From the NCBI RefSeq assembly GCF_000241305.1, contig NZ_BAEH01000036.1, forward strand, positions 1 to 64,000: 64,000 bases of DNA, read 5' to 3'. Position numbers and translations under genes: made by a program. Origin of the DNA: Gordonia effusa NBRC 100432 (GTDB lineage Bacteria; Actinomycetota; Actinomycetes; Mycobacteriales; Mycobacteriaceae). Positions 15,201 through 64,000 of this stretch are shown here, piece by piece. The notes beneath the pieces are model-generated. The model was not told the DNA's origin. It saw only the letters and a list, made by a program, of their open reading frames with translations, and did no database searches. The first letter of the stretch is position 1; every line of letters begins with the position of its first letter.

Positions 15201-15219
15201 GCGGATCGACGGTACACGG

Positions 15220-38481: not shown

Positions 38482-39591
38482 CTACGCTGACCCGCGAGAA
38501 CCGACCGACTCATCGATCGAGCCCAAGAACTCGTCGATGACCGGCCACGTACTCGCGACGGCGTCCGGTCCGGCGAGCAAACCCAGATGCGACGACTCAA
38601 TCGTCTCGAACTCCACCCGCGGTGAACCCGTCAGCAGGCCCACGCCATGATTCGCGGCAGGCCAACTGCACAGAGCGTCGCGGTGACTGCCGAACAATTG
38701 GACCGGCACGTCGATGTCGGCGAAGTTTAGTTCAGCCTCGCCGATGGTGAGTTCGCCGGTCCGCAACCGGTTGCGATAGATGAACTCTTCCCACATCTGC
38801 TCGACGAGCCGACCGGGATACCCCGGAAATGTGCGCTGGAACCGGTTGATGACTTCCATCCGCTCCAGCGTGCGGGTGTTGCGCAGGTTCTGCAGGATGA
38901 ACAGCGGCTTACGCAGTTCGCGCTGCCACGACGTCGCCCGGTAGGCCACCTGAACAACCGGTGCGGGAATGCCGCCCAACAGACGCAGCGGCAGCAGCGG
39001 CGCCTTGCCGCCATTGGGTCGCATCAGCGCGCGGGCCTCCCGGTATCCGGGGAGTGCGTCGTAGTCCAACGGTGTGGCGATCGCGGTGATCGAGCGGATC
39101 GACGTCTCGCCCCGTTGAGCCGCAGCGGCAGCGGTCAGCAACGACAGCGTTCCGCCGAGACTCCAGGCCACCAGATCCACCTGATCGCAGTCGGAGTCAT
39201 CCAGGACTCGGCTAATGGCCTGCGGAATGATATCGAAGACGAAATCTTCGAATCCCATACCCCGATCGCCGTAGCCAATCTCGCCGAAGTCCACCACGTA
39301 GGGTGTGCGGCCGACATCACGCAGGTGTTTGACCAGGGAGAATTCGTCGGAGAGGTCATAGCAACTCGCTGGCGCGGCGATCGGCGGAACCAGCAATACC
39401 GGTGCGCCACCGGTATTCCCGTACCGTCGCAGCACGCGATGCTTCTCGTCGAATAGCACCGTGTGATCAGTTCCAGCGGAACGGCCGATTCCGTCGCCCA
39501 ATGTCAGCGCCCACAGATTGCGGGCGCCGACGCCAAGTGTCGTGATCAGGTCGTCAGAGTCGTTGGTCCGCGACGCGGTTGCTTGTGACAT
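38482..39591 (-). CDS. Alpha/beta hydrolase related to PHA synthase (PhaC-like)
   Basis: A 369-residue hydrolase. VLLVPPIAAPASCYDLSDEF and VKHLRDVGRTPYVVDFGEIG are typical of the PhaC-related alpha/beta fold. The nucleophile elbow is VDLVAWSLGGTLSLL (A-W-S-L-G-G), with Ser where PHA synthases have Cys, so this is more likely an esterase or thioesterase than a polymerase. The catalytic His may be in ESSHLGLLAG near the C-terminus. ATG 39591 follows AGAGAG. It lies 75 bases downstream of the large siderophore-type operon on the same strand and may be co-transcribed, but a functional link is inference. Confidence 0.8.
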   Translation of the reverse strand: MSQATASRTNDSDDLITTLGVGARNLWALTLGDGIGRSAGTDHTVLFDEKHRVLRRYGNTGGAPVLLVPPIAAPASCYDLSDEFSLVKHLRDVGRTPYVVDFGEIGYGDRGMGFEDFVFDIIPQAISRVLDDSDCDQVDLVAWSLGGTLSLLTAAAAAQRGETSIRSITAIATPLDYDALPGYREARALMRPNGGKAPLLPLRLLGGIPAPVVQVAYRATSWQRELRKPLFILQNLRNTRTLERMEVINRFQRTFPGYPGRLVEQMWEEFIYRNRLRTGELTIGEAELNFADIDVPVQLFGSHRDALCSWPAANHGVGLLTGSPRVEFETIESSHLGLLAGPDAVASTWPVIDEFLGSIDESVGSRGSA

Positions 39592-39667
39592 GTGCCGTCT
39601 CTCTAGGTCGATATCGTCGATGCCATTATCGACTGAGACCATGCCGAGTGGCCAATCGGGCCGTCAC

Positions 39668-42600
39668 CTACTCGTCGCGGATGGCTACGAACACCCGCTG
39701 ATCCAGCATTTCGAGCGGATGTTCCTGGCGCGGCAACACGACGGCGGGCGTCAACCCGGCCGCGCGGAATCCGTCAACCCATTCGTCTTCGGTGAGGAAA
39801 ATCCGGTCGGTCCCCGCACGCACGTCGGTGACACCGGCTTGCGGTTGTCCCGCACGGGGCGACATCAGCAGATGCACCGACGTCAACATCTGTGCGTGTG
39901 CGTGGACCGATTCGATCACCACCAACGCGCCGCCCGGATTCAGCCGATCACGCAACTTGGTCAACAGATCGCCGATGTGCAGAGCATTGTGCAGCACATT
40001 GGACCCAATAATGATGTCGTAGCGCTCGGTACCCAGATCCACGTTCATGTCGACAATGCCGAACCGCATCCACGGATAGTCGGCGAAATGCTTCCGGGCC
40101 GAGGCCAGGAAGAAATCCGAGAGGTCAGTGAAGAAGTAGTCGACGGGCAGGCCGACCAGACCCGCGGCTACGTCATTCGTCGTTCCACCGACGCCGGCGC
40201 CAAGTTCCATGATCCGCACCGGCCGACGTTGCTGTTGCAACGTGCCGACCAGGTCGGCGACGGCCGCCCGCGCACCGCGGTTGAGGTAGCTGCTGATCAA
40301 ATTGTCGCGGTACGCCGCATCAGCCGCGGCCGTCCCGCCATCGGCAAAAAGGATCTCCTGCAACTGTTTACGATCCTGGACAAGCTCGGTCAGGTGCTCG
40401 TTTGATCCACCGAGGAAGGCCGCCATTTCCGGTCGATAGCCCAATTCTCGGCACACCTCACCCAGGTCGGCGCGCGACGGCGTCGGAACGGGTGCGACGT
40501 AGCGGTACTGTCGCGTTCGCTCGTCATAGTCGACGATGCCGTTACGCCCCAGTTCAACTAGCCACTGCCGTAACAACCATTGGTGTCGCGGCGCGAATTC
40601 GATGGCTGCCGCGATCTCTTCCTCGGTATGCGCCAGACCGTCAGCGAAGGCGGGGTACAGCGAGCGCATCATCGCGCTGAGACCGAACAAGTTGATATCC
40701 GTTCGGGCCGAACGCATTCGATCACTGTCAAGTGGCCCGTCGATCACTCCCTCCGCGACGGCACCCACCCGGTCGATCAGTTCACCGGCCGGAGAATCAA
40801 CCGGTGCCGCAGAGACGACAACGGACGCTGTTGGTGTATTAGCCTGCGGTACAGCAGCTTTCGCATCTCCGATACTGCCAACGGACGGGCGGTCGCCAAT
40901 CATCCCGATCACATCGTCGAGTGATGCCCCGCTGACCAACTCCGCGACCGGCAACTCAAACCCAAACTCCACCGACACCTGACGCCGTAACTCCAACGCC
41001 TGCAACGAATCCAGCCCCAACGCCACCAACGGCCGCGCAGTATCAATACTCGCCACATCAACCACACCGATCACCTGACCGACCATCGCCAACACCCGAT
41101 CAGCGACATCCACACCACCCGACGAGACCGGCGCGACCACCGCTGATGGCGTCGGCGCGGGTGTCGGTGTCGGCATGGTCGCGGTCGCGGTTACCGACGG
41201 CCGGTCGCCAATCAACCGGATCACATCGTCGAGCGATGCCCCGCTGACCAACTCCGCGACCGGCAACTCAAACCCAAACTCCACCGACACCTGACGCCGT
41301 AACTCCAACGCCTGCAACGAATCCAAGCCCAACGCCACCAACGGCCGCGCAGTATCAATACTCGCCACATCAACCACACCAATCACCTGACCGACCATCG
41401 CCAACACCCGATCAGCGGTGTTAGCGCCGATCGATGGTGGGGCGGGCGCCACTGCCGGGGCTGACGCTGGCGCGGCAATCGGCTCGACTGCCGGCTTCGG
41501 CGCCACCGCATTGCTCGACAGTTTCGAGAGCAGTGGCCCGTACCCGAAACCACTCAGCACCGCGCGCGCACGTTCCCAATCAAACCCAACGACAACGGCG
41601 TTGCTGCCGGTCGGCACCGACTGCGCGACGTCGATCGCATCGTCGGCCGACATCGGCAGGTAACCGATCGCCTCCAGGCCCCGCCGGTCTGATGCGCCAG
41701 CACCGTCATGGGCTGCCCACAGTCCCCACTGCACAGATACGCACGCCACCCCGTCGGCGCGCAATCGGATCGCAAGGGCGTCGAGCATCCGATTGGCCGC
41801 CGCGTAGACCAGCGTCCCGCGACCGCCGATGGTCGCCGCGAAGGACGAACACAGAATTACCTCGGCCCGGTCAGAGAGCGTGACCGAGTTCAGCGCGCTG
41901 ACAAGGCCGCTGACCTTCGCGCCCATCAATCCCTCGACATGCCCCGCTGTTACCTCGGTCAGTTCAATTGACCGGATGCCCATCAGGTCTGCCGCGGCGT
42001 GCACGACGAGATCTACTGGATGGCTAGCCAATTCGCGGCCTAGATCGACCACCGACTCGGCGTCGGTGATGTCACTGGCTATTACAGAGACATCGCAGGT
42101 ACTCGCCTCGCGGATAGCAGCCAACGCCTCGGTGATCGGAGCGGTCTCGCCAGACCGATTCACCAGGGTGATCCGGCGTGTTCCGCGCCGGGCGTGGTAC
42201 TCGCAGTAGGCCAGCCCGACGTCGCCGGTTCCGCCGATGACCAATACATGATCATACGAAGGAACATCGGCCCTGCGTTGGGAAACTTCTGCCGCCACAA
42301 GCCGTTTGGCGTACAGATCTTTGCCGCGCAATGCCAGTTCCGGCTCGGTCGCCGTGTGTAGAGCTGTGACGAGTTTCGCGATCGCAGCCGGGTCGACGTT
42401 GGACGGCAAGTCGATATGGCGGAACGAAATATCCGGGTATTCCGCTCCAGCGCAACGGAATCCGGCCGCGATCGCGGCCTGCGCCAGGTCAGGTGCGGCA
42501 TCCGCGTCGAGAACATTCTCGCCACCGGTGGTGATCAGCCAGTAGTCGCCGACCGCCTCTGGCTTCGACCACCAGTCACGACTAGCGAAGAATTCCGCGG

Positions 42601-44335
42601 TTTGGCCAATCGCGTCACGCACCAAATCTTCGATGCCGCGCTGAGCGGTTGCGGACTGCGGCACCAGGATCACGGCTGTATCGATGGCTCCGTTTTCGCC
42701 CGCCGCCGCGACGTCGATCATCCGGGCTGTCGCGCCGTACGCTTCGGCCTGCTCGATCACCGAGGCGGCAAGATCGGCCTGGTTGCCGGTGTAATCGACG
42801 ATGCCGATGGTGCGCGGCGCGACCGTCTTTCGACGAGACAGTCGGACCCATTCTTCGACGACATGTTGCGCCGATCGCACGGTCCGTGTCGGTACGGCGG
42901 GCGCCACCGGCGCTGGTGCGCTCTGCACAGGCACTACCCGGCGCGGTTGTGTCGCCTTGTCTCCCAACGGCATCCACAACGCCTGACGGTTCATCACCGT
43001 ATTCGGGAAGTCGAGCAGAGGGAGGCCGAGGTCGTCAATGTCCCCGGTGCGCAGCGACGTCAACGAATACTGCAGGTCGCCGACGATGACGCTCGCGAGG
43101 TTGCGAGTGAACACCGACAGGTCCGTCGCCGAACGATTGGAGGTGCCGATGACGGCCTCGGAGCCCGAGCCGACTGCGGTAACTGTCTCGCGTACCGGAA
43201 GCGCGAGAGTCGGGTGCTCGGCCAATTCGATGAAGGTATCAGCACCACGCTCTACGGCCGCGCCGATCGCTTTGTCGAACCGCACGGCATTGCGAAGATT
43301 CCAGAACCAGTACTCGTCGAAGGGAAGCTCAGCGGTGATCGAATCGCCGAGTGTGCCCCCGATACAGTCAATTTCGGTCGGTGTGAACTGATCAGCGGTG
43401 AGTTTAGTTCGCGCGGTATCGAAGATGACGTCTTTGAACTGGCTCACCAGATTTGTATGCGCGGGATACTGGACGCCGATGACTCGACCGAATCGGCCAC
43501 GCGCGGTGAATTGTTCGACGATCTCGGTCACAGTCTGTCGTTCACCCGAAATACCAACCATCCGAGGCGAATTCACCACCGAGATCTGCGCCCAGCCTGA
43601 GTAGCGGGCCAGCAGCGCTTCGGCTTCGTCTCGATCCGCGTCGATCACACCCATCGCATATTTGTCAGAGGCAATCGGCTCGACCACGCGAGCTCGCGTT
43701 CCCACCATCATCACCGCGTCCGGCAACGTCATCGTGCCGGAGACATAAGCGGCCGCAATCTCGCCCTGGCTATGTCCCACAACGACACTCGGCTCCACCC
43801 CAACCGACCGCCACGTTGCCGCCAGCCCGGCCATCTGCATAAACAGAGCTGGTTGTACTACTCGCGCCGGCTCATCGGAATCAACATCATCAGCGATGAC
43901 ATAGTCACGCGGCGATTCGCCGAACGCGTCAACAAACGCGTCGTGGCAAAGGTCAACTTCGGCACGAAACGCGGGCACCCCTTCGTAGAAAAGTTTGCCC
44001 ATTCCCCGACGTTGTCCCCCCTGCCCGGGGAATATCCAAGCGGTCCGCCGCGCGATAGCCGGCTTGTCGTTAGTGACGACGCACGGGTGCGCTTCACCCG
44101 CCGCGATCGCGGTGACAGCGGCGTCCAACGTCGCACGATCAGACACCATTGCCAACGCCCGGTACCTGCGCACGGTACGGGTGCGCAGCAGCATCGTGGC
44201 GATCTCGTCACACGAGACAGACGGTTGTGCACCAAGGTATTCCGCGATCGCCGCACCTTCGGCGCGTAGCAGATCCGGACTTTCGGCGGACAGCAGAACC
44301 GGGACAGAACCGTCGGGCAGTCGATAGGTTGGCAT
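39668..44335 (-). CDS. KS-less polyketide synthase: AT - KR - ACP - ACP - methyltransferase
   Basis: A protein of about 1555 residues. AT at ~98-390: WIFPGQGGQ, VVVGHSQGEIAAAY (Ser ~189), and YPAH at ~290, where malonyl ATs have HAFH and methylmalonyl ATs YASH. KR: VLVIGGTGDVGLAY near 695 and VYAAANRMLDAL with the catalytic Tyr. Two ACPs each carry LGLDSLQALELRRQ (Ser near 1003 and 1107). C-terminal SAM methyltransferase: IMELGAGVGGTTNDVA near 1380. There is no ketosynthase in the protein or elsewhere in the window, recalling the split MbtC (KS) / MbtD (AT-KR-ACP) of mycobactin synthesis. ATG 44335 has GGAG upstream. Last gene of the leftward assembly-line operon. Confidence 0.88.
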   Translation of the reverse strand: MPTYRLPDGSVPVLLSAESPDLLRAEGAAIAEYLGAQPSVSCDEIATMLLRTRTVRRYRALAMVSDRATLDAAVTAIAAGEAHPCVVTNDKPAIARRTAWIFPGQGGQRRGMGKLFYEGVPAFRAEVDLCHDAFVDAFGESPRDYVIADDVDSDEPARVVQPALFMQMAGLAATWRSVGVEPSVVVGHSQGEIAAAYVSGTMTLPDAVMMVGTRARVVEPIASDKYAMGVIDADRDEAEALLARYSGWAQISVVNSPRMVGISGERQTVTEIVEQFTARGRFGRVIGVQYPAHTNLVSQFKDVIFDTARTKLTADQFTPTEIDCIGGTLGDSITAELPFDEYWFWNLRNAVRFDKAIGAAVERGADTFIELAEHPTLALPVRETVTAVGSGSEAVIGTSNRSATDLSVFTRNLASVIVGDLQYSLTSLRTGDIDDLGLPLLDFPNTVMNRQALWMPLGDKATQPRRVVPVQSAPAPVAPAVPTRTVRSAQHVVEEWVRLSRRKTVAPRTIGIVDYTGNQADLAASVIEQAEAYGATARMIDVAAAGENGAIDTAVILVPQSATAQRGIEDLVRDAIGQTAEFFASRDWWSKPEAVGDYWLITTGGENVLDADAAPDLAQAAIAAGFRCAGAEYPDISFRHIDLPSNVDPAAIAKLVTALHTATEPELALRGKDLYAKRLVAAEVSQRRADVPSYDHVLVIGGTGDVGLAYCEYHARRGTRRITLVNRSGETAPITEALAAIREASTCDVSVIASDITDAESVVDLGRELASHPVDLVVHAAADLMGIRSIELTEVTAGHVEGLMGAKVSGLVSALNSVTLSDRAEVILCSSFAATIGGRGTLVYAAANRMLDALAIRLRADGVACVSVQWGLWAAHDGAGASDRRGLEAIGYLPMSADDAIDVAQSVPTGSNAVVVGFDWERARAVLSGFGYGPLLSKLSSNAVAPKPAVEPIAAPASAPAVAPAPPSIGANTADRVLAMVGQVIGVVDVASIDTARPLVALGLDSLQALELRRQVSVEFGFELPVAELVSGASLDDVIRLIGDRPSVTATATMPTPTPAPTPSAVVAPVSSGGVDVADRVLAMVGQVIGVVDVASIDTARPLVALGLDSLQALELRRQVSVEFGFELPVAELVSGASLDDVIGMIGDRPSVGSIGDAKAAVPQANTPTASVVVSAAPVDSPAGELIDRVGAVAEGVIDGPLDSDRMRSARTDINLFGLSAMMRSLYPAFADGLAHTEEEIAAAIEFAPRHQWLLRQWLVELGRNGIVDYDERTRQYRYVAPVPTPSRADLGEVCRELGYRPEMAAFLGGSNEHLTELVQDRKQLQEILFADGGTAAADAAYRDNLISSYLNRGARAAVADLVGTLQQQRRPVRIMELGAGVGGTTNDVAAGLVGLPVDYFFTDLSDFFLASARKHFADYPWMRFGIVDMNVDLGTERYDIIIGSNVLHNALHIGDLLTKLRDRLNPGGALVVIESVHAHAQMLTSVHLLMSPRAGQPQAGVTDVRAGTDRIFLTEDEWVDGFRAAGLTPAVVLPRQEHPLEMLDQRVFVAIRDE
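40891..41105 (-). repeat. 215-bp direct repeat copy 1 (encodes second ACP)
   Basis: Matches 41203-41417 at offset 312 with 6 differences in 215 positions (about 97%). It encodes the second ACP of the KS-less PKS. The near-identity extends to synonymous positions, indicating recent duplication or ongoing gene conversion. Confidence 0.95.
41203..41417 (-). repeat. 215-bp direct repeat copy 2 (encodes first ACP)
   Basis: Partner of the copy at 40891-41105, in the same orientation. In translation order this one comes first. The two are separated by a 97-base Pro/Ala/Thr linker-coding segment that is not duplicated. Confidence 0.95.
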
Positions 44336-44380
44336 GGTCGATCTCCTCAAGCAGAACAGATGGTCTTCTCGGCGCCCGGC

Positions 44381-45136
44381 TTATGTAGGGGCTTGTTCGC
44401 GCGCGTCTTCGGCGAGTAGTTCAACGATGTCCTCGAGGTGCTCGTTGAGATAGAAATGCCCGCCGTCGAAGACGGTCACCTCGACGTCGTCGCTGTGCTG
44501 GCGCCAGCCGTTCAGATCGGCAAGGGCGACGATCGGATCGCTGTCGCCGCCTAGCGCATGAATACGCGTCGCGATCTTCACGTCCAGTGGGCACCGGTAG
44601 GCATCAGCAGCGGCGTGGTCCGCCTTGAGTACCGGCAAGGCCATCCGCATCAACTCACGGCTGGCGAGCACGTCATTGCCGGTGCCTTGCAAGGCGGCCA
44701 TGTGGTCGAGCAATTCCTCATCATCGGTCGGCGACGGTGGTCGAAACTCGTGACGGCACGGCGCGACCGCCGCCGACAGCGTTACCTGCCGGACCGGAAT
44801 ACCGGCGGCTTCGGCGAGCCGAACGAACTCGAAGGACGTCACCGCACCCATGCTGTGGCCGAAAGTCATGATCGGCACGCCGCGGTTATACGACGACGCG
44901 CGAAACTCCGCGAACGCCCCCGCGGCGATGTCGGCCAAATCTTCGAGCGGGGGCTCGGCCAGCCGGTCCTGCCGACCCGGATACTGGAAGATGATGACGT
45001 CGAAATGCGCGCTGAGCGCCTTCGACAGCGATCGATAAGCCGACGCCCCAGCTCCCGCATGCGGGAAAATAAGTAACGGAATACGTGCATCGACGTCCGG
45101 CTTGTGGAACTTCCGGATCCATCCTGGTTTATCCAT
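44381..45136 (-). CDS. Type II thioesterase
   Basis: A 251-residue stand-alone thioesterase of the NRPS/PKS editing type. LLIFPHAGAGASAYRSL is the oxyanion-hole region. MTFGHSMGAVTSFEF holds the nucleophilic Ser (G-H-S-M-G), GGDSDPIV the Asp and FDGGHFYLNEH the catalytic His. Such enzymes hydrolyse stalled or wrongly primed acyl groups from carrier proteins; it might also release the product because no type I thioesterase is visible in this operon. It lies between the last NRPS (27-base gap) and the PKS (45-base gap), all on the minus strand. Confidence 0.93.
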   Translation of the reverse strand: MDKPGWIRKFHKPDVDARIPLLIFPHAGAGASAYRSLSKALSAHFDVIIFQYPGRQDRLAEPPLEDLADIAAGAFAEFRASSYNRGVPIMTFGHSMGAVTSFEFVRLAEAAGIPVRQVTLSAAVAPCRHEFRPPSPTDDEELLDHMAALQGTGNDVLASRELMRMALPVLKADHAAADAYRCPLDVKIATRIHALGGDSDPIVALADLNGWRQHSDDVEVTVFDGGHFYLNEHLEDIVELLAEDAREQAPT

Positions 45137-45163
45137 GTCGAATAACTCCGCTTCGCGATATGA

Positions 45164-48100
45164 CTATGGCTGACATACTTTTTCCCTTTCGATCGCTGCG
45201 CGTGTGGTCGCGAGCAGACTCACACTGCGCTGCCAGAGGTCGACTAGTTCATCGATCTGAGCCAGCGTGAATACCGCGTCGCTCCAGCGCACCGTTGTGG
45301 CCAGCTCCGGCTGCCCGTCATCTGCCGCTTGCACAGCCGCGATGAGGCTCAGCGGGAATCGCAGCGTCATATCCGGCTCCGGCGCAAGGGGAATCACGCG
45401 GTTGAGTTCCACATCAGTCACCATCGTCCAAGGACGTTCGGGACCGCCACTGTGATCGAACCTTCCGAGGTAATTGAACTCCACCTGCGGCTCGGCCGCC
45501 GCGACAATCTGCTGATCACGCGAAATATCGCGCAGCAGACCGTAATCGAGGCCCTGCTCGGGGACCGACGCCAGGTGGCTGACTACCGAATCAACGAGTT
45601 CTGCTATCCGCTTCGGGGACCGCTCGGCTTCCTCGAGGTCGACGGCGAACTCGCCGGCACCCAGCCGCGCTGGATACACGTTGGTGAACCATCCCGCCGT
45701 ACCTGTCGTGTCGGTTCCCAGCGCATTATCGGCACGACCATGACCCACCAGCGCGATGAGCGAACCTTGCCGGTGGTCAGTGTCATGCGCTATTCGCCAT
45801 GACGCCAAAGCCATTGTGAGAGCTGCCAATAGCAGCTCGCGCACACCGTCGGCACGAGTTACTCCGGCCAGCAACGCCGCGCTGTCACTAGGATTAATCG
45901 TGACCTCGGCGAGTCGCAGACTCGACCAGGTGACGCCACCCCGAACCACCGCACCCAGCGCCGGGTCCGGTGTTGCAACCTGAGAGAGCCAATACTCCTT
46001 CTGTGCAACGACTTCCGGTGTGTCCGCGCGCTCGGTCATCAGCTCACACCAACGACGATAGGACGTGATCTCGGTCGGCGGCTCCGGCTGCTCGCCAGCG
46101 ACGATCTGCTCCCACGCCTGCGACAGATCGATCATCAAGACGCCCCACGAAACGACATCGATGGCGAGGTGATGGATCGTGAGGACAAGGAGATCCATGC
46201 TTGGTCCGCCACGTAATAAGTTGGCGCGCACCAACTCTCCGGCCCAGGGATTCATCTGTTCATTTGCGCGGTCAATCACCTTCGCGATTCGGTCCGCATT
46301 CGACGGCCCCGCCGGCTCGAACTCCTCTTCGGCGAGCACCGACGCCGCGAACACCGTTCCGGGTTCGCGCGTGCGCTGCCGAGTTTCGCCGTTCTCGTTA
46401 GTAACCAGGATCGACCGCAGCGTGTCATGACCGTCCAGCACCGCCTGCAGCATGGATTCGACATCCGCACGGGTCGCCCCATCGGCAACCCTCAACAACA
46501 CCGTCTGAGTAAATCGACGATAGTTGTCCTGCTCGAACATCCAGGATGCGTACGGCAGCGGCATAACATCGCCGTACCCGTCGTGATCCTCGTCGGCCAG
46601 TTCACCGAGTCCGAGATCGACCGCGGCGGCGAGGTCGCGGATCGTCGGGTATGAGGCGATCAGGCGCACCGTCACAGCCAAGCCACGCTTCCGAGCTCTC
46701 GTCGCCAGCGAAATCGCGACAATACTATCGAGGCCCAGCTCGAAGAAGTCATCCTCGACGCCCGGTGCTTCTCCGTCGAATACCTCCGATATCAAGTCCA
46801 CCAAAGCTCGCTCGGTATCGGTCGCGGCTACCGCACCGGCGTTTGAGCCGACTGTGGACATCGCTTCCGAAGCGAGCCGATTCAGTTCGCGCACATCGGT
46901 TTTGCCGTTCGAGTTCACCGGCAATTCAGCGAGCACCAGCAGTCGGGCCGGGATCATATATCCCGGTAGCCGCTGCCCGAGCTGAGCACGCAAAAGTGTA
47001 GGACTGAGTTCTGCGCCAACTGTAAACCCGACCAGTCCCGCTCCCCCGCCTCGACGGACCACGGCTACCGCGGCGGCGGTGACGTCCGGCAATTCACGCA
47101 GCGCCGTCTCGACTTCACCGATCTCGATCCGATAGCCGCGGATCTTCACTTGGTCGTCGGATCGGCCGAGATAGGCGATACCGCCGCCCCGCAAGCGGCG
47201 GACCAGGTCTCCGGTGCGATACATCCGCCGGCTCAACGCCCCTGTCCCGTCGGAGGTTTCGCCGACAAATGGGTCGGCCACAAAACGGTCCGCCGTTGTC
47301 CCCGGCCGGCCGACATACCCTCGCGCGACCTGCGGGCCGGCCAAATAGAGTTCACCCACTACGCCAGCGGGCACCTGCCGAAGCCGAGAATCGAGGATAT
47401 AACCCGACATACCGGCAGTGGGCGCACCGATATTCGCCAGCGAAATATCTGAAAACTCCTGCGACACAGTAAGATTAGCGACAAGCGCTTCCACAGTCGC
47501 CTCGGTCGGTCCGTAACAGTTATGTACTGAAACGCCCGGCAATGCTCTCAGTCGAGCCCACAGCGCGGCATCGATCGCCTCGCCGCCGAGCGCCAGGATC
47601 GTCAAACCGCGGTCCACCACACCCGCGAACTCCAACTGCCGGAACATCGACGGGGTGGTGTCGATCATGTCCACACCGAACTTGGCGATACCGTCGACCA
47701 GGCGATGCGTGTCACGCATCGTCTCCTCGGAAAACAGTTGCAGCGCATGGCCGTCGAGTAATCCGATCATCGGCTGCCAGGAGGCGTCGAAGCTCAGCGA
47801 CCACGCATGCGCGATCCGCAGGGGGCGGCCCAGCCGCGCTCGTCCCGGTCGGTACACCCGTTCGCGATGATCGGCGAAATAGCTGACGACCGCACCGTTG
47901 GTATTGACGACGCCCTTCGGCTCACCGGTCGAGCCGGACGTGAAGATGATGTACGCCGCCTGCGCCGGATCGCGCCGTGCCCGCGGCGACTCAACCGGTC
48001 GCGCTGCGATCCGGTCAACAGTCTTTGGGTCATCAAGGTCGATAACAAGCTCGCCCCGCGGTAACCCCGCGACGCCCTCGCCGCTAACGATGCTCGCTAC

Positions 48101-55700: not shown

Positions 55701-55896
55701 GGAAAGTCAGTGCGAGACAAAGGTTGTAGGCGGTACTTCCAGGATTGATCTGCTGGTGTGCCCACACATAACGCTGACCGAAGGACAGCGGTGCGCGGTG
55801 TCGATCGCGGCGACGCGAAACCGCGGGTGCGGTGGCTAATCCCTCGGCGGCAAGCCGCGCCGCCATCGCGCGCTGGAGGTCGTCGAGTGTTCGCAT
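49777..55896 (-). CDS. NRPS, C - A - PCP - E - C
   Basis: A 2039-residue synthetase. C1 motif is [10 protein letters not shown] (~168), retaining the second, catalytic His. A domain: [12 protein letters not shown] (~650), [19 protein letters not shown] and [12 protein letters not shown]; the hand-read code is [26 protein letters not shown] (~1050). E domain: [11 protein letters not shown] (~1243) and [10 protein letters not shown] second condensation domain at the C-terminus has [10 protein letters not shown] (~1725). This C follows E, so a D-accepting (DCL) role is expected. The next protein also begins with a C domain, which is unusual. ATG 55896 immediately follows the TAG of the upstream gene. 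Confidence 0.93.
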
Positions 55897-57585
55897 CTAC
55901 TGTCCCCCACCGAATTTCGCTCCCAGTGCGGCGAGTGTCGACGCGTCCAACCCCGACGCGCTCATCGGTGCGCTCTGCACCGGTGAGTCACTGGCACCGT
56001 CGGCATGCTCAGCACTGCCCGAACCCGAGTCCAGCGCGGTCGCCAATTCATGCACGGCCGGGGAGATAAACACGGTCTGAACATCGATGACATAGCCACG
56101 AGCGGTGAGATCAGTGACCATCTTCAGGGCCGCGATGCTGTCGCCGCCAAGTGAGAAGAAGGTGTCCTCGCGGCCAATCTCGTCGTCGTCGTCAAGCTCC
56201 AGAACATCCCGGATAGACTGTACGACAACGCGTTCCGACTCTGAAACGGGCGGACCCCCCAGACCCGACAGTTGGGTGAGTCCACCGGAATCACCGGAGA
56301 ATAGCGTCACCCCGACGCCGCCGGCGGCGATATTCCCGTCGAGGTCGCCGGCCCATGCACTCGCCCGTTGGCCGATTCCCGCGGCAAACGCGTCAATTTC
56401 GGGACGTCCGGCCAGACGCGGCGGGAATGACACGACAATCGTGGCACCGGAATAGTCAAGTTCGACGTCGATCGCGATATCCACGCCCTCGTCCTGCGCG
56501 CGCTGGCGGACCGATTCACGAGCGGTGATCCCGGCACCGCCAACGGTGGTCCGAGGAGTCTGGCGCACGGAGAGTTGCGCCTGATAGAGGCGCTCGGACG
56601 CCATTGCTTGTCTCGTTTGCTCAATCCGGACCTCGGAATGACCGCGCGCCGCCGAGATCAGTTGCGCGGCATCGGCGATCAATGCGCGCGGCGACTGTAC
56701 GGTGACGCGGCTGCGCAGCGGCAACCGGTTGGCAACCGTGCCGACGAGGCCGGCCGTGGCTTGGTCCACACGCGCGTCATCGACCAACCCGATCACCACG
56801 TCGTCCCCTAGGCCCGCGTCGCGCAAAGCAACGGCCGCAAGTGCGACCGCCACCGCGGCGGCAGCGTCTTCGGTGTTCTCCTGTTCCGGAGAGAGCGCCG
56901 CGATGGTCGCTATCGGGATCGTCACGGTCCGGCGTGCCGGACCTGAACCGGCGGGAACCTCGACAATCGGGACGTGACCTGCCGGCTCACGCAGATGATC
57001 GGTCCAATAGGACCGATCAGGATCCGACGCCGATGTCGCGGCGACCTTCTTTAGTTGTGCCGCGGCATAATCGCGGTACTGGCTGGGCACGCCGACAACG
57101 TCGTCGGCGAAGAGTTCAGCGACGATCAGGTCAAGTGCGGCATCGTCAGCGGCCACCGGATGTACGGCGACAGACAGCACGTCGCGACCGGAAAGGCGGT
57201 GTAACCGGATTCGAATCGGGAGCTCAGATCCCAGATCAAAACCATATGTCGCATCGTCGATCAACGCGCCCAGCAACGCCGATTCGTCTCGGTCGTCTTC
57301 GATGATCTCCAGGACCCTGTCGGGTGCCGCGACTATCCGTTGATACGGCCGCCGGCGATCGTCCGGATATACCCCGCGCAATACCTCGTGACGAGAGACC
57401 AATTGGATCGTGGCTGCCTCCAACGATGCCACATCCAGAGCACCGTCCAGGTCAAGCGCGACAAACAGATTGATCGCGTTGCCGCGACGATGGGCCATCA
57501 GCGCGGCCATTTGCGGCAGCGACAGCGGAAGTGGCCGCTCTGTCGGTTGAGCGGGAGCGTGTTGCTGCTCAGGCGTTTTCGTCAT
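55897..57585 (-). CDS. Free-standing degenerate C domain fused to PCP (no A domain)
   Basis: A 562-residue protein with only two domains. Residues ~15-430 follow a condensation-domain pattern (PLSLPQMAALMAHRRGNAIN at the start). The active-site motif reads VHPVAADDAA at ~142, with Pro at the second His of HHxxxDG and Asp for Gly. The PCP near 481 is intact (FFSLGGDSIAALKM). There is no adenylation domain, so the carrier must be loaded in trans or by the upstream protein. The tail is a Ser/Gly/Ala-rich linker with possible docking function. ATG 57585 overlaps the upstream NRPS by 17 bases. Confidence 0.85.
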   Translation of the reverse strand: MTKTPEQQHAPAQPTERPLPLSLPQMAALMAHRRGNAINLFVALDLDGALDVASLEAATIQLVSRHEVLRGVYPDDRRRPYQRIVAAPDRVLEIIEDDRDESALLGALIDDATYGFDLGSELPIRIRLHRLSGRDVLSVAVHPVAADDAALDLIVAELFADDVVGVPSQYRDYAAAQLKKVAATSASDPDRSYWTDHLREPAGHVPIVEVPAGSGPARRTVTIPIATIAALSPEQENTEDAAAAVAVALAAVALRDAGLGDDVVIGLVDDARVDQATAGLVGTVANRLPLRSRVTVQSPRALIADAAQLISAARGHSEVRIEQTRQAMASERLYQAQLSVRQTPRTTVGGAGITARESVRQRAQDEGVDIAIDVELDYSGATIVVSFPPRLAGRPEIDAFAAGIGQRASAWAGDLDGNIAAGGVGVTLFSGDSGGLTQLSGLGGPPVSESERVVVQSIRDVLELDDDDEIGREDTFFSLGGDSIAALKMVTDLTARGYVIDVQTVFISPAVHELATALDSGSGSAEHADGASDSPVQSAPMSASGLDASTLAALGAKFGGGQ

Positions 57586-60500
57586 TGTGTCCCTCTACTG
57601 AAAAATCGACAAAGTCTCGGGCCGCTTCGGCTAGTTCGGCGAGCCCGTGGTTCGGGTGGTCGGCGAAGGTCTCCAGTGCGCGCTTCACGGTCCGGGCGAA
57701 GACGTCAAGTTCTCCGTGTCGGTAGCCGCTGTCGCCGGCGGTTACCCGAACCTGGAAGCCGCCGTGGGGCGCATCGATGAACTCAAATCGCAAGCCATCG
57801 CCCGGGCCGATGCGCGAAGTCCGCACCTCGCCGAGCAACCCCGGACCGAACTGAACCTGCGACGGCCAGTTCTCTTCTCGCACTTCAACAGTCGCCCAGA
57901 CATTCGGCCGCGACCGCTGCTGCGCAATAGCCTGTGCCGCGAGGACCTCCGCCGGAAGGTCGCCGACGCCATACGCGCCGAGAGCCGCATCTCGGGACTG
58001 TTCGAGCACCATGCGCAAGGTCGGCGAGCCCGAAAGGTCATGGCGCAACACGAGCACGCCGGAGAGCGGTCCGACCATAGTCGCCATCGCCGCATCGGCT
58101 CGACCGGAAACCGATCCGGCGAGCGCGATAGTCGTACCAGCACCGAGCGCGTTGAGCGCGACGGCAACCATCGCCTGGTAGAACATGAACTCGGACGCGC
58201 CGTCGGCGGTAGCGAGCCCGCGCAGTCTGCGTCGCAGACCGGCGTCGATCTCGAAATTCGCCGGATCCGGCGAAATATCCTGTCCTCCAGCGATTTCGGT
58301 ATCCGATAGCAGCAGGGTTGGCTCCGGGATACTCGCCAACATGGCATCGAGTCGGTCCACTTCCGCGGCGAAGATTTCTACGCACTCAGCCTGCCAGTAG
58401 ACGTGATCGGTGTAGTCGAACTCAGCGGCGGCTCGTCCGGGCCGTGGCGCGGCGTCCTCGTGACGCCCATATGCGTGCGCCAGTTCGTCCACGATGACCT
58501 GCAACGACCAGCTATCGGTGATCGAGCGATGCATTGCCAGGGTAAACACCCCGGTAGTTCCATCGGTGAATAGCCTGGCCCGCCAGAGCTTTTCACTTCC
58601 CAGATCGAATCCCCGCCGCTCATCCTCGACGAGGACCGTGGCGAGGTCGTCGGCTTCCACTCGCTCAACCGAGAAATCGATGGGCGCCATGCCCAAAATC
58701 TCATGCCGCGCAACGACCTCAGAGAGCGCATTCGCCACCAGTGCCGAATCGGGCTCAGCATCGAAGGTGACTGTCGCCCGTACCTGAGCATCACCGCCGT
58801 GGGCGGACGCAATGTGTTGCGCGGGAGACGGCGGCACCTGACCGGTACGTGCGTAACTGCGGATCGCAGGTGCACGGCGCGTTGGCAAAGTCTTCGGGGC
58901 GGCCTCAACCAGGGCCGCGAGGCCCGCGACGGTGGGATGTTCAAAAAGGTCGCGGATCGCAGTCGCTACCCCAAACTCCGTTCGCAGCGTATTGACCAAA
59001 CGACTCGCGATCAGCGAATGCCCGCCGAGTTCGAAGAACGAATCGTCGGCGGATACCTCTTCGGCTCCGAGCAATTCAGCGAAGATTTCAGCGATACGGC
59101 GTTCTGCACGCGACTTTGGACGCCTGCGGTCTCTGGTTCCTACCCGCTGGGCTGGCGGCAGAGTCGCCTTGTCGAGTTTGCCCGCGACCGATCGCGGTAT
59201 GTCGGCGAGTACTGCGTAACGCCCTGGAATCATGTAGTCCGGCAAAGTCTTCGCCGCGTAGGCGCGCAGCTCTGCGAGGTCGATTTCGGTATCAGCCGCA
59301 GTGAGGTAGGCGGTGAGCCCGCCCAGGGGGTCGTGGTCGTCGTCGACGACCACGACAGCGTCACGCACCGTTGGGTGACTGTTCAGCGTCGCTGCGATTT
59401 CACCGAGTTCCACTCGATGACCGCGGATCTTTACCTGCTGGTCCGCACGGCCCACGAACTCTATGTCACCCCGGTGACTTCGTCTCGCGAGATCACCGGT
59501 CCGGTATAACCGCCGCCCGGAGCAGAACGGGTCGGCTACGAAATGTTCGGCGGTCATCGTCGGCCGAGAAAGGTATCCGCGGGCCAATTGTGGCCCGCCG
59601 AGATAGATCTCGCCGACCACGTTGTCGGCGACGAGTTGCAGACGCTCATCGAGGATATAGGCGGTGACGTTGCGATTGGGCTGCCCGATCGGCACGATCT
59701 GGCTTCCCTGAATATCGCGGATCGAGTAGTGGGTCGCCGACACCACCGCTTCGGTTGGTCCGTAATAGTTGCGCAGATCAGCCTCGTAGACTGCCGCGAA
59801 CCGATCGGCGACATCGCCGGGCAGGGCTTCACCGCCTACCGGAACATGGGTCAAATCACGCCACTCACGCGATTCGGGAAGCGCCAACAGTGCGCGTAGC
59901 AGCGACGGAACCACATGAAGTACGGATATGCGATGACGCGTAATGACTTCTGCCAGATAGGACATGTCGCGGATCCGCTCCGCATCGGGAACCACTAGTG
60001 TCGCACCATGATTCAGAGTGACGAATAGGTCAAGCATCGATGCGTCGAAGCTGACCGACGATATCTGCAGTACCCGTGCGGCGGCTGTCAGATCCCACTG
60101 AGCGCCGAATCCCGTGATGTGGTCGCAGATCGCGGCGTGCGAAACCGGCACGCCTTTGGGTGTGCCCGTCGAACCCGAGGTGTACATGACGTAGGCCAGA
60201 TTGTCCGCCATGAGCGGTCGCACTCGTTCGGCGTCGGTGACCCGATCCACCGATTCGGTGCGGGCCTGCGCTTGGGCGTCGGCCAGCGCCGCCGCGTCGA
60301 TGACAATCCGCGGCTTCGCATCCGCGATCAGATGTTCGATACGTCCTTCTGGATATGCCGGATCGATCGGCAGGTAAGCGGCACCAGATTTGAGCACCGC
60401 GAGCATGGCAACTACGAATTCAGCCGACCCGGACAGCCGGAGCCCGACTAAGTCTTCGGTTCCAATTCCGCGAGCGATTAAGTTGCGCGCCAATTGATTT

Positions 60501-61999
60501 GACTGAGCATCGAGGTCACGGTAGGTGAGCCCACATTCGTTGACGGCAACGTCGGAGACGATCGCCAACGAATCAGATTCAGCTCGCGCGGAGACCAGAT
60601 CTACCAAGGTGCCGGCTGCGGGGCGAGCTTGTACGCCGGTGGATCGCGCAATGATGTTGGCTCGCTCCGCGTCGCCCAACATATCGAGTTCGGCGACCGC
60701 GCACGATGGTTCGCGTGACGCCGACTCCACTAGCCGCCGAAAATGGCGAAGCACCTGCTCGACCATCGCGTCGTCGAGATGGCCCGTCTGCGCGTCGAGC
60801 ACCAAGGCCGCGCCGTCGACGCCGACATCGACGCTCAACTGTATCGGTACACCGACAAGGGTGGGGCCGGCATGTCGCAGTGAAGCCCGGTTACCGTCGA
60901 GGGCAAGGACACCAGATCGATCGACCATGGAGAAGCCCAGGCGCACAACCTGTTCCATGCCATCGCGATATCGGCTACGAGTAGGATTCAGCGCGCGGAC
61001 AACATCGTCGATACCCACCGCGCGGTGGGTATCGGCGTCGGACAGCGCCGCATCGACTCGCGTCACAAGCTCGGCGAACGACTCACCGGGATCGACACCT
61101 GCGCGCAGTAGCATCGTATTGGCATAGCAACCAATGGAATTCGCGCTACCGGCGTCGCGTGTCGAGGTTCCCACCGCGATCGCGAAATCTGCCGCGCCGG
61201 TATACCGCTGAATGAGCACCGCATATACGGACAGCAACACAGCTTGAAGTGGAAAGCCACCCGAGGCAGCGAACTGATTGGCCGTTTCGATCTCGGCGCC
61301 AGCATCCACTCGAATGCGGACCGCCTCGCGCGATGGCGTGGACCGTATACCGCCGGACAGGTCAACGGGTTCGGGCAGTGGCTGAAATTGCCTGCGCCAG
61401 AACGTGACATCGGTCGACGCACTCGAGTCAGGGGTGGACTGCGGCGAGATCGCGGGGAGCTTCGCCGAGTGGTCGGTATAGAGCGCACTGATGTCACTGG
61501 CAACCACCGACAACGACTCGTCGTCAAACGCGATTGCGTGCGCCGAAAGAGCAATAATCGCGTCATCCCCGTTGCGATGAATCAGGGTGATTCGCAACGG
61601 TGCTTCAATCCGCAGGTCGAACGGCCGCATGGCGTCACGCCGCAGCAGTACCTCCGCCCGACGGCGGGCCGCTCCGGGCGAGAGGTCGGCCAGATCAACG
61701 GTGTCCCACCGCGGTGCGACCCCGCTGATAACCCGCGAGGGTTCGCCGTCGGCGGCCTCGGCAAATGTACTGCGCAGCACGTCGTGGCGAATCGCCAACG
61801 CGTCGAACGCGCGGCGTAGCCGGTCGGCATCGACCGGACCTGCCAATTCGTAGACCGCGCGGAAGTTGTGCACCGCCGACCCAGGCTCGCACAGATACCG
61901 GAACCATGCCCGGCGTTGCGCCGCGGTCAGCGGATATCGCGGTGCTACATCGGGTGATTGGACCTCCGGCGCTTTCCTACCGGCCACCGACGCCGTCAT
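57569..61999 (-). CDS. NRPS, C* - A - PCP - C* with both condensation domains degenerate
   Basis: A 1476-residue synthetase and the first NRPS of the operon. C1 reads SAHAIAFDDES (~158) where HHxxxDG is expected: the second His is Ala and Gly is Asp. A domain: MYTSGSTGTPKG (~610), FDASMLD, YYGPTEAVVSAT and SVAGKLDKATLP; the hand-read code is D-A-L-H-P-G-Y-V-S. PCP: FFELGGHSLIASRL (~996). The C-terminal condensation-like domain reads MHRSITDSWS (~1161), with Arg at the catalytic His. Both C domains should therefore be impaired for classical condensation. ATG 61999 overlaps the formyltransferase stop (ATGA). Confidence 0.9.
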   Translation of the reverse strand: MTASVAGRKAPEVQSPDVAPRYPLTAAQRRAWFRYLCEPGSAVHNFRAVYELAGPVDADRLRRAFDALAIRHDVLRSTFAEAADGEPSRVISGVAPRWDTVDLADLSPGAARRRAEVLLRRDAMRPFDLRIEAPLRITLIHRNGDDAIIALSAHAIAFDDESLSVVASDISALYTDHSAKLPAISPQSTPDSSASTDVTFWRRQFQPLPEPVDLSGGIRSTPSREAVRIRVDAGAEIETANQFAASGGFPLQAVLLSVYAVLIQRYTGAADFAIAVGTSTRDAGSANSIGCYANTMLLRAGVDPGESFAELVTRVDAALSDADTHRAVGIDDVVRALNPTRSRYRDGMEQVVRLGFSMVDRSGVLALDGNRASLRHAGPTLVGVPIQLSVDVGVDGAALVLDAQTGHLDDAMVEQVLRHFRRLVESASREPSCAVAELDMLGDAERANIIARSTGVQARPAAGTLVDLVSARAESDSLAIVSDVAVNECGLTYRDLDAQSNQLARNLIARGIGTEDLVGLRLSGSAEFVVAMLAVLKSGAAYLPIDPAYPEGRIEHLIADAKPRIVIDAAALADAQAQARTESVDRVTDAERVRPLMADNLAYVMYTSGSTGTPKGVPVSHAAICDHITGFGAQWDLTAAARVLQISSVSFDASMLDLFVTLNHGATLVVPDAERIRDMSYLAEVITRHRISVLHVVPSLLRALLALPESREWRDLTHVPVGGEALPGDVADRFAAVYEADLRNYYGPTEAVVSATHYSIRDIQGSQIVPIGQPNRNVTAYILDERLQLVADNVVGEIYLGGPQLARGYLSRPTMTAEHFVADPFCSGRRLYRTGDLARRSHRGDIEFVGRADQQVKIRGHRVELGEIAATLNSHPTVRDAVVVVDDDHDPLGGLTAYLTAADTEIDLAELRAYAAKTLPDYMIPGRYAVLADIPRSVAGKLDKATLPPAQRVGTRDRRRPKSRAERRIAEIFAELLGAEEVSADDSFFELGGHSLIASRLVNTLRTEFGVATAIRDLFEHPTVAGLAALVEAAPKTLPTRRAPAIRSYARTGQVPPSPAQHIASAHGGDAQVRATVTFDAEPDSALVANALSEVVARHEILGMAPIDFSVERVEADDLATVLVEDERRGFDLGSEKLWRARLFTDGTTGVFTLAMHRSITDSWSLQVIVDELAHAYGRHEDAAPRPGRAAAEFDYTDHVYWQAECVEIFAAEVDRLDAMLASIPEPTLLLSDTEIAGGQDISPDPANFEIDAGLRRRLRGLATADGASEFMFYQAMVAVALNALGAGTTIALAGSVSGRADAAMATMVGPLSGVLVLRHDLSGSPTLRMVLEQSRDAALGAYGVGDLPAEVLAAQAIAQQRSRPNVWATVEVREENWPSQVQFGPGLLGEVRTSRIGPGDGLRFEFIDAPHGGFQVRVTAGDSGYRHGELDVFARTVKRALETFADHPNHGLAELAEAARDFVDFSVEGHNDENA

Positions 62000-62943
62000 G
62001 AAAGTTGGGGGGTATCACACAGATACCCGCCGCGCCGGAAGAAGTCGGCGCCCTCGTGTTCTGTGCCGTCAGCGGTACGGATGCGGTTGACGACGAGCGC
62101 ATAGTTGTTGCCACGCTTGGGATCCGGTCCGCAAACGACCGCACCGCCACCTTCTTGGACGATGACGCGACCCGCGGTTCCGCCGTAACGTGCCGTGGAA
62201 ATTGCCGCCGCGAGGATTTCGATCTTCTCGCCGCGATAGAAGGAGTACGCGCGCGGGTACGGCTCGGACAGGGCACGCACGAATCGCTCAAGGTCCTCTG
62301 CGGTATCGGTCCAGTCGACAAGACTGTCTCGTTCCGAACGCTTATGGAAGTAGGTTCGTGCGGCCTTATCTTGCGGTCGCCACTGTGGTTCACCCGACTC
62401 AACCGCCGCCAGCGCCTCTTCCACCGCCCCAGGGATGAGATCCATTCCGGCGTAAACCAATTCGGTTCCAGTGATTCCGGGCGGTATGGGTAGTCGCTTC
62501 TGTACCAGGATGTCTCCGGTGTCGAGTTGTTCATCCATCCGGTGCACGGTGAGCCCAAATTCCTCCGCGCCGCTGATGAGTGCCCACAGCACCGGCGAGA
62601 AGCCGGTGAATTTCGGCAGCAACGAGTCGTGCAGGTTCAGGGTGCCGTGTGGTGGAAGGTCGTAGAGTTCCTTGGGCATCCAGGTGTACCAGCTATTGAC
62701 CACGATAAGGTCCGGCTCGGCGCGCTTGACGATATCGATCGTCTCGGCGTCGGCGCGCTCGGTCAGATGGACCGGAATGTCGTTGGCGCGCGCGAGATCC
62801 TCGACCGAATCAGCCCAGCTTCCCTTGTACGCATCGTCGCTCGCCGGGTGGGTCACGGCGAGCACTACGTCGTGGCTGGACGCGATTAGTGCGGCGAGGG
62901 TGCGTTGGCCCCACGTTTGGAAGCCGAATGACACGATGCGCAT
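61996..62943 (-). CDS. N-formyltransferase (probable N5-hydroxyornithine formyltransferase)
   Basis: A 315-residue enzyme of the methionyl-tRNA formyltransferase fold. LNLHDSLLPKFTGFSPVLWA carries the Asn/His and the S-L-L-P loop, and VHRMDEQLDTGDILVQ carries the catalytic Asp. The C-terminal OB-like domain is short. Genes of this type beside hydroxamate NRPS genes (the coelichelin, rhodochelin and exochelin systems) formylate N5-hydroxyornithine using 10-formyl-tetrahydrofolate. Directly downstream of an ornithine/lysine N-hydroxylase, that role is likely. A housekeeping fmt is unlikely given the operon context. Start ATG 62943 follows AAGG and lies 5 bases past the hydroxylase stop. Confidence 0.88.
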   Translation of the reverse strand: MRIVSFGFQTWGQRTLAALIASSHDVVLAVTHPASDDAYKGSWADSVEDLARANDIPVHLTERADAETIDIVKRAEPDLIVVNSWYTWMPKELYDLPPHGTLNLHDSLLPKFTGFSPVLWALISGAEEFGLTVHRMDEQLDTGDILVQKRLPIPPGITGTELVYAGMDLIPGAVEEALAAVESGEPQWRPQDKAARTYFHKRSERDSLVDWTDTAEDLERFVRALSEPYPRAYSFYRGEKIEILAAAISTARYGGTAGRVIVQEGGGAVVCGPDPKRGNNYALVVNRIRTADGTEHEGADFFRRGGYLCDTPQLS

Positions 62944-62948
62944 ATGAT

Positions 62949-64000
62949 CTAAACCTTCTGGTTGGGAGTTGGACGTATGTCGGCACCAGCACGCGTGGCA
63001 CTTAGTGCGGCGGCATTCGACAGGACTCGATCGGATAGTTCGCCGAGGCAGCTCAGATTCGGAAAACCGGGCCCTTGAGCGAGACCGGCAAGACTGGGCA
63101 AATGAAGTCTCGCCGCTAGCCCGTCGATCGCGAGGTCGTGTCCGATTGATGTCTCGATGCGGTCCTGGGTGATCGGACCGCCGACAGCTAGTTCGATGAA
63201 ATCGGTTGCCTCAGCGTCGAATAGATCGAAGAACCACAGCGGCTGGCCACCGGTGGCATCGACCACCAAGTCGTAGCCGTGCACCTGGTCGGGGCGGAAT
63301 TCGTTACGCAGGGTCAGCGCTACACCATCCCCTTCGGGCAGCACACGTATTACCCTGCCTTGCAAGTGATGCACCCGATCGTCATTGAGTAACGATTCTT
63401 GTACGCGAACCGAGAACACCCCGCGATCGGTGCGCCGCACCACATCTCGCCGTTCGGCCAGACTCAGGGCGCGCCACTTGATCGGGTCGCTATAGAGCGA
63501 ATTCTCGAAGAAGCTCTCGCCACGCGTGTATATCGTGGCGCCCGGCGAGATGACCGACACGGTAAGCACGTCATGCCGAACCAGTTCGTCGAGTGCGGAC
63601 CCGGCGGTTTCGCCGCCACCGATCACCGCGGCCCGCGAGGATACCGGCAGTTCCCGACGACCGGCACGGCGCCAGAATTCGGCGACGCTCAACACCCGGG
63701 GATGCTCGGCGAGTGCACGGGTGGACTGTCCGGGCCCGGTGAGCATCAGCCGTTCTGCCTCGACGGTCGACACATTGCCATCGGCCCCGACGACGGTGAC
63801 CGACCAGCGAAAGCCGCCGCGATCGTCGGTCGATGTGCAACCGATCGCAGTAGCGCGACCGCGGATCAGATCCAGGTCAGCCTTTTTCGCCACCCATTGC
63901 AGGTACTTCGCCCACAGGTTGTGTTCCGGGCTAGGCCGGCCACGATCGACCCACTCGGCGTAGGTTCCGCGTTCGACCAGAAAGGTAGTCCAACTGAACG
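62949..64000 (-). CDS. L-ornithine/L-lysine N-monooxygenase (MbtG/PvdA-like), 5' end outside window
   Basis: The frame stays open from the stop at 62949 to the window edge, so the gene is truncated at its N-terminus. The edge codons read FSWTTFLVERGTYAEWVD, then SPEHNLWAKYLQWVA, strongly reminiscent of MbtG and other flavin N-hydroxylases. Further on, AAVIGGGETAGSALDEL is the NADPH-binding Rossmann motif and IYTRGESFFENSLYSDP the conserved substrate-domain segment; DLVVDATGG lies near the second FAD contact. An internal GTG at 63893 is not the true start. It hydroxylates the side-chain amine that the adjacent formyltransferase would then formylate to a hydroxamate. Confidence 0.9.
   Translation of the reverse strand, partial: FSWTTFLVERGTYAEWVDRGRPSPEHNLWAKYLQWVAKKADLDLIRGRATAIGCTSTDDRGGFRWSVTVVGADGNVSTVEAERLMLTGPGQSTRALAEHPRVLSVAEFWRRAGRRELPVSSRAAVIGGGETAGSALDELVRHDVLTVSVISPGATIYTRGESFFENSLYSDPIKWRALSLAERRDVVRRTDRGVFSVRVQESLLNDDRVHHLQGRVIRVLPEGDGVALTLRNEFRPDQVHGYDLVVDATGGQPLWFFDLFDAEATDFIELAVGGPITQDRIETSIGHDLAIDGLAARLHLPSLAGLAQGPGFPNLSCLGELSDRVLSNAAALSATRAGADIRPTPNQKV

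Follow-up and report, generated by a model that had tools for sequence, protein, structure and literature searches.

The contig NZ_BAEH01000036.1 (158,645 bases) from the 4.7-Mb genome of Gordonia effusa NBRC 100432 carries a gene cluster for a probable siderophore of the nocobactin/amamistatin family. The analysed window comprises positions 1 to 64000 of this contig, to which all coordinates refer unless stated, and holds the downstream two-thirds of a cluster whose product is most likely an iron-scavenging siderophore. All eight open reading frames (ORFs) on the minus strand were confirmed in the 64-kb window in the order first described. They encode an N-hydroxylase, a formyltransferase, four nonribosomal peptide synthetase (NRPS) proteins, a type II thioesterase and a polyketide synthase (PKS) composed of acyltransferase (AT), ketoreductase (KR), two acyl carrier protein (ACP) and methyltransferase (MT) domains. 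Pfam agrees with this gene content, which an earlier note on the DNA had listed, and the consecutive spacings from hydroxylase to PKS (5, -4, -17, 0, -10, 27 and 30 bases) lie within the maximum of 45 bases given there. The operon is cut by the window edge. Its remainder is found on the same contig, to about 74.4 kb, and intergenic gaps do not exceed 30 bases in the whole run (Table 1). The NRPS proteins are described by their condensation (C), adenylation (A), thiolation (T), epimerisation (E) and cyclisation (Cy) domains.

Table 1. Features of the siderophore locus of G. effusa. C* marks a C-type domain that has lost the second histidine of HHxxxDG; KS, ketosynthase; aa, amino acids.
Feature	Position	Strand	Evidence or remark
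L-lysine N6-monooxygenase, NbtG-like, 441 aa	62949..64000, on to 64274	-	4d7e match; PF13434
Formyltransferase, 315 aa	61996..62943	-	PF00551, PF02911; TerH-like role inferred
NRPS C*-A-T-C*, 1476 aa	57569..61999	-	Pfam domains, motif reading
C*-T didomain, 562 aa	55897..57585	-	Pfam domains, motif reading
NRPS C-A-T-E-C, 2039 aa	49777..55896	-	Pfam domains, motif reading
NRPS C-A-T-E, NbtE-like, 1540 aa	45164..49786	-	Pfam domains, A code
Type II thioesterase, 251 aa	44381..45136	-	PF00975
PKS AT-KR-ACP-ACP-MT (NbtC with C-terminal methyltransferase), 1560 aa	39668..44350	-	NF037941; Pfam
Tandem ACPs within PKS	40883..41428	-	Protein identity 94%
C-methyltransferase domain of PKS	39677..40753	-	PF08242
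Alpha/beta hydrolase	38482..39642	-	PF12697; 25 bases downstream of PKS
Stand-alone AT, upstream part of operon	64271-65653		
KS, upstream part of operon	65640-66965		About 1.4 kb upstream of hydroxylase
T-Cy-A-T NRPS, upstream part of operon	66962-70450		Cy motif DxxxxDxxS
ABC exporter genes, upstream part of operon	70475-73187		
Salicylate synthase, upstream part of operon	73073-74404		TIGR03494
AMP ligase, divergent from operon	74567-76219		Pfam and gene position; salicylate specificity inferred
Siderophore-interacting protein, beyond AMP ligase	77029-77799		

The PKS scores above the cut-off of the curated NCBI equivalog for NbtC, NF037941 (1367.5 bits; cut-off 1150), and below that of the MbtD model (695 bits; cut-off 1150). 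The split, MbtD-like organisation of the PKS proposed in the earlier note is borne out. The salicylate synthase passes TIGR03494 (483.6 bits; cut-off 325.15). An aryl-AMP ligase, a T-Cy-A-T protein, a lysine N-hydroxylase, a formyltransferase and a C-A-T-E protein corresponding to NbtE complete the nocobactin features present. The single-protein NbtD (C-A-T-C-T) is not among them, and C*-A-T-C*, C*-T and C-A-T-E-C proteins stand in its place. Because subfamilies II, VI, VIII and IX of the Nocardia nocobactin-like clusters depart in the same way (PMC7413640), the missing one-piece NbtD is read as a variant, non-defining feature. No NbtD-like protein was found elsewhere in the genome. Apart from the cluster, the best score for the C-A-T part is 466 bits (38% identity), whereas the classical NbtDs of congeners reach about 790 bits as the sum of C, A and T.

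The N-hydroxylase has a single PDB match at E ≤1e-10, the L-lysine monooxygenase 4d7e (733.6 bits), and for this reason N6-formyl-N6-hydroxylysine is expected instead of the N5-formyl-N5-hydroxyornithine first suggested. A hydroxamate siderophore line with hydroxylase and formyltransferase is retained from that proposal. A hydroxyornithine siderophore of the coelichelin, rhodochelin or exochelin type, whose pathways share this pair of enzymes, is hardly credible in view of the lysine monooxygenase match and of a locus that also encodes a salicylate synthase, a Cy domain, a KS and an NbtC. The formyltransferase-type NCBIfam matches to the 315 aa protein all remained under their own cut-offs. 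The locus resembles mycobactin synthesis (MbtA-MbtK) in salicylate, Cy domain and the logic of a split KS and AT-KR-ACP; it differs in the MbtD model score, in a formyltransferase instead of long-chain acylation, and in the C-methyltransferase.

Beyond position 64000 lie a KS gene, the salicylate synthase, an ABC exporter, an IdeR-like box and a siderophore-interacting protein. The PKS is therefore not without a KS, as had been supposed: a gene for it lies upstream of the hydroxylase at a distance of about 1.4 kb. KS and salicylate synthase were rightly expected past the right edge; MbtH was not found there, and when the complete genome was searched for this family the two matches obtained were both on another contig (C38). 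A thioesterase domain was not found in the NRPS proteins or in T-Cy-A-T, the sole PF00975 match being the separate 251 aa protein. A Pfam scan limited to the cluster and the genes on its flanks showed no SagB-type dehydrogenase.

A 19-base IdeR/DtxR-like box with two mismatches is situated at position 74468, between the salicylate synthase and AMP ligase genes, and none was obtained in 200 shuffles. No box at ≤3 mismatches occurs inside the 64-kb window. In G. asplenii and G. hankookensis, boxes with three or four mismatches are present in the interval that separates the AMP ligase gene from the salicylate synthase gene, and the N. transvalensis stretches have such boxes at several positions. 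The locus is predicted from its genes to be a nocobactin/amamistatin-family siderophore cluster, with the product class given below, at a probability of about 0.85. Against this assignment, no box at ≤4 mismatches was found in the scanned stretches of two other Gordonia genomes with related clusters, G010 and G016.

Pfam and motif reading gave the NRPS orders C-A-T-C, C-T, C-A-T-E-C and C-A-T-E. The two E domains claimed earlier both carry HHxxxDxxSW, the motif of E-type domains. The 1476 aa protein has intact A and T motifs, a T serine, the A code DALHVVYVSK and an NbtD-like A pocket; a T serine is also present in the C*-T didomain. The A and T motifs of C-A-T-E-C are intact as well, and its A code reads DVFSVLLMDK. 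The code of C-A-T-E, DAQDLLCVEK, is identical to the terminal-lysine code of N. altamirensis. The oxazoline A domain shows the pocket residues of N. jejuensis and differs from N. altamirensis at three of the positions read. The C-A-T-E-C and oxazoline codes were read by eye from motif strings, with spacing and final K taken from GrsA PheA.

The predicted product consists of a salicyl-oxazoline, N-formyl-N-hydroxylysine, a 2,2-dimethyl-3-hydroxy fatty acid and a cyclic N-hydroxylysine. Salicylate would be loaded and cyclised with serine to the oxazoline, serine being suggested by an A pocket like that of N. jejuensis and unlike that of N. altamirensis. A non-methylated oxazoline has been postulated for N. 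jejuensis (PMC7413640), and N. altamirensis, a methyloxazole maker, produces amamistatins (PMC8978914). The central lysine would be N6-hydroxylated, N6-formylated and probably epimerised. Its carboxyl group would be esterified to a 2,2-dimethyl-3-hydroxy fatty acid formed by KS and AT-KR-ACP-ACP-MT, with gem-dimethylation by the MT domain. C-A-T-E would then add a second, D-configured lysine, yielding an N-hydroxy caprolactam; lysine at this last module is suggested by the A code shared with N. altamirensis. The two E domains point to the D configuration at both lysines. D,D lysines have been reported for brasilibactin, which fits an E domain at the central lysine (PMC7413640).

The second histidine of HHxxxDG is lost in three C-type domains, reading HA in the first C* and HR in the C-terminal C* of the 1476 aa protein and HP in C*-T. 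Both C domains of C-A-T-E-C keep it, the first as QHxxxDG and the last as HHxxxDG. The same pattern was observed in relatives. Among proteins of the C*-A-T(-C*) type, the second histidine is absent from every first C domain that could be read (11 of 11) and from all five C-terminal domains; it is also absent from nine of nine C-T didomains of this type. It is kept in classical NbtD (6/6 first and 5/5 second C domains) and in C-A-T-E-C proteins (4/4 first, as QH, and 6/6 last C domains). The counts leave out incomplete G. asplenii and N. gamkensis loci that duplicate fuller ones, one second fragment from each of the species N. wallacei and N. jejuensis, the first C domain of Antrihabitans (RR; its ORF lies on the strand opposite to its neighbours) and the unlabelled tail of the N. 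brasiliensis protein. A formyltransferase gene adjoins all 11 dead-type proteins.

A division of labour among the NRPS proteins may be read from these domains, tentatively and at somewhat less than even odds. C*-A-T-C* and C*-T would load lysine and act as a platform on which the hydroxylase and formyltransferase encoded next to them tailor it. C-A-T-E-C most likely forms the amide and ester bonds, as it is the sole protein with catalytic-histidine C domains between the oxazoline and the last lysine. Several observations speak against such a division. With four A domains for three expected residues, one A domain exceeds the known residues, and the code DVFSVLLMDK gives no substrate assignment. 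The dead-type first C domains form a single clade (support 91/99), so the histidine was probably lost in one old event and kept since, not lost many times. The classical NbtD of N. gamkensis is also directly beside its formyltransferase, so that position alone is no proof of a tailoring role. In several relatives from Nocardia the protein stops after T and so has no C-terminal C*. Finally, loss of the second histidine is not always fatal to C-domain activity (PMC11546977).

The last point also favours a split NbtD, in which C*-A-T-C* and C*-T do condense and C-A-T-E-C is an extra or skipped module. The C-T didomain has been regarded as a probable functional substitute for the missing C-T of NbtD (PMC7413640), and the 1476 aa protein retains its A and T motifs and an NbtD-like pocket. 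The absence of the second histidine from the three C-type domains in every readable relative makes this arrangement somewhat unlikely. The mean fraction of self-score against relatives points the same way, with 0.20, 0.10 and 0.26 for the C* domains and 0.40, 0.56 and 0.64 for the three intact C domains of G. effusa; a low fraction is not diagnostic alone, because the first C domain of classical NbtD, histidine intact, gives 0.21 with the same query. The surplus A domain could instead mean that C-A-T-E-C, whose A and T motifs are intact, adds a further residue to a siderophore longer than nocobactin. This is distinctly improbable, since Nocardia strains that also carry the extra module make products which, by mass spectrometry, keep the standard core (PMC7413640).

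A more specific form of the division of labour, by itself unlikely, treats C*-A-T-C* and C*-T as a non-condensing platform. The disabled C domains, kept in Nocardia and Gordonia, would recruit the flavin N-hydroxylase and the formyltransferase to carrier-bound lysine, while C-A-T-E-C would have taken over the bonds of NbtD and would set the D configuration of the central lysine. The idea follows the analogy of the X domain recruiting P450s in glycopeptide synthesis. The X domain is a C-like recruitment domain with the motif HRxxxDD (PMC11546977). The best PDB match of the G. effusa C-T protein is the X domain 4tx2 (1.2e-17). The N. transvalensis C-T and the C-terminal C* of G. effusa match the canonical 5u89 best, and the first C* matches Txo2 6p1j. 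An intact NbtD C-T control also matches other C domains better than the X domain. As the controls do so, membership of the C* domains in the X-domain group is not claimed, and the comparison is kept as a functional analogy only.

Nocobactin-like subfamilies of Nocardia with a formyltransferase, a discrete C-T, a C-A-T-E-C protein and a C-methylating NbtC have been described (PMC7413640), so the combination of parts, thought undescribed in the earlier note, has precedents. The siderophore family is already known; the Gordonia host and several parts are unusual. Like subfamilies II, VI, VIII and IX, the G. effusa operon comprises formyltransferase, discrete C-T, C-A-T-E-C, T-Cy-A-T and transporter genes. 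It shares with subfamily VIII the C-methylating NbtC and the predicted non-methylated oxazoline and gem-dimethyl acid (PMC7413640). The subfamily VIII set of C-T, C-A-T-E-C, NbtC with C-methyltransferase and formyltransferase is present as judged from that description only, in which N. rhamnosiphila is the example. Unlike the four subfamilies, G. effusa combines a Gordonia host with a stand-alone AT, tandem ACPs and a salicylate synthase in the same operon.

The amamistatin/formobactin clusters of N. altamirensis and N. gamkensis resemble the locus in the AT-KR-ACP-MT PKS, formyltransferase, lysine hydroxylase and an NbtE of the same code. The NbtE of G. effusa is more similar to its N. gamkensis counterpart (56%) than to the N. 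brasiliensis or N. cyriacigeorgica enzymes. Instead of the three G. effusa proteins, however, both clusters have an NbtD with intact C domains, which in N. altamirensis lies only partly in the locus. They also have one ACP and a different oxazoline/oxazole A pocket, and no stand-alone AT in the mapped stretches. The clusters of G. asplenii, G010 and G016 share the stand-alone AT, the tandem ACPs, the MT domain and C*-A-T-C* beside formyltransferase and hydroxylase. All three retain a classical NbtD, and neither a C-T nor a C-A-T-E-C protein was detected in these clusters.

Three side observations concern the Nocardia loci. Section 9 of PMC7413640 names subfamilies VI and VIII as C-methylating; among the mapped loci the VI member N. 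brasiliensis is without MT (1041 aa) and the VII member N. gamkensis has one, and section 10 together with the maps fits VII and VIII better. In the N. transvalensis locus, five NRPS A domains are accompanied by a pair of KS genes and a pair of PKSs of the NbtC type, of which one has an MT and the other has none, as if two nocobactin pathways stood side by side. In N. altamirensis, a 371 aa ORF beside the formyltransferase (14424-15539 of the stretch, minus strand) weakly resembles the C*-A-T-C* A domain (42 bits).

The distribution within the genus was studied in 59 Gordonia genomes, G. effusa included, with searches that scored part of the first-look candidates; C-A-T-E-C was represented by its last C domain only. 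Strong MT-domain matches occur in 4 of the 59 genomes, again counting G. effusa, and a fifth match has only 35% identity. Lysine hydroxylase was detected in 18 of 59. Over 4071 nt the congener G060 shows complete identity to the named G. asplenii locus, in keeping with Gordonia as the genus of the host. The search with the C-terminal C* found C-type domains in every one of the 59, so that no meaningful count could be drawn from it. Neither the C-T didomain nor the last C domain of C-A-T-E-C had a match in the other 58 genomes beyond 31 to 36% identity (E 1e-30 and 1e-60). In 200 genomes of the order, only the G. effusa copy matched the A domain of C-A-T-E-C at more than 50% identity with E ≤1e-100. 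A plasmid collection queried with the 2039 aa protein yielded remote NRPSs, with 32.7 to 34.3% identity among the matches listed, the best ten of 2780 records; two records had their best place at 60 to 80% identity. In a tree, the C-T of G. effusa and that of N. cyriacigeorgica cluster together within a clade whose other members come from Nocardia and Antrihabitans. Copies of C-A-T-E-C in Nocardia and relatives share 55 to 61% identity with the G. effusa protein. The simplest reading is a transfer of C-T and C-A-T-E-C from a Nocardia-like donor.

The PKS part appears to be of mixed descent, too. AT-KR-ACP-ACP-MT and the stand-alone AT are common to the four Gordonia clusters (G. effusa, G. asplenii, G010 and G016). 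In trees, the KSs of all four join those of the Nocardia type without methylation (98/98) and stay outside the clade of MT-type partners (100/100), while the AT of the Gordonia PKS belongs to the MT type (100/100). Each of the two MT-type clades also contains the first N. vermiculata PKS, which has no MT. Gordonia thus seems to pair a KS of one lineage with a methylating PKS of another. The stand-alone ATs form one clade (99/100) and keep the catalytic Ser, His and Arg. The YPAH motif of PKS ATs reads YPGH in the G. effusa enzyme, HPGH in G016 and HAGH in G010 and G. asplenii, an alteration that hints at a different substrate.

The tandem ACPs of G. effusa are 94% identical in protein and differ at 20 of 240 nucleotides over 80 codons. 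The corresponding protein identity is 95% in G. asplenii, 82% in G010 and 79% in G016. The pairs of G. effusa and G. asplenii are far more alike than ACPs across species, those of G010 and G016 no more than between species, which suggests a recent duplication or a homogenisation by gene conversion in the first two only. The MT-type PKSs mapped in Nocardia (N. transvalensis, N. wallacei, N. gamkensis and N. altamirensis) have one ACP each.

No report devoted to a nocobactin-type cluster in Gordonia was found in the open-access literature, nor were the Gordonia form, the exact gene set or the pattern of disabled domains; a report elsewhere is possible. The one mention of Gordonia found in PMC7413640 concerns mycolic acids. 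The locus places formylated, gem-dimethylated nocobactin chemistry in Gordonia. The pattern of kept and lost histidines offers a testable answer to a point left open in PMC7413640, the roles of the extra C-A-T-E-C and the C-T didomain. If true, recruitment by catalytically dead C domains would be extended to siderophore N-hydroxylation.

Downstream of the PKS, the alpha/beta hydrolase is probably associated with the cluster. A homologue with 75% identity adjoins the G. asplenii cluster, and none was found in the other 12 stretches searched. Just past the siderophore operon, ribonuclease-family (PF00545) and barstar-family genes lie side by side (window 36583-37514, plus strand) and likely represent a barnase/barstar-type toxin-immunity pair. 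Other large NRPS genes of the genome are located on contigs C38, C91 and C14, with a 7896 aa open frame on C91. On the cluster contig, a Myco_19_kDa family lipoprotein is encoded at 76320-77000 (plus strand), in the interval that separates the AMP ligase gene from that of the siderophore-interacting protein.

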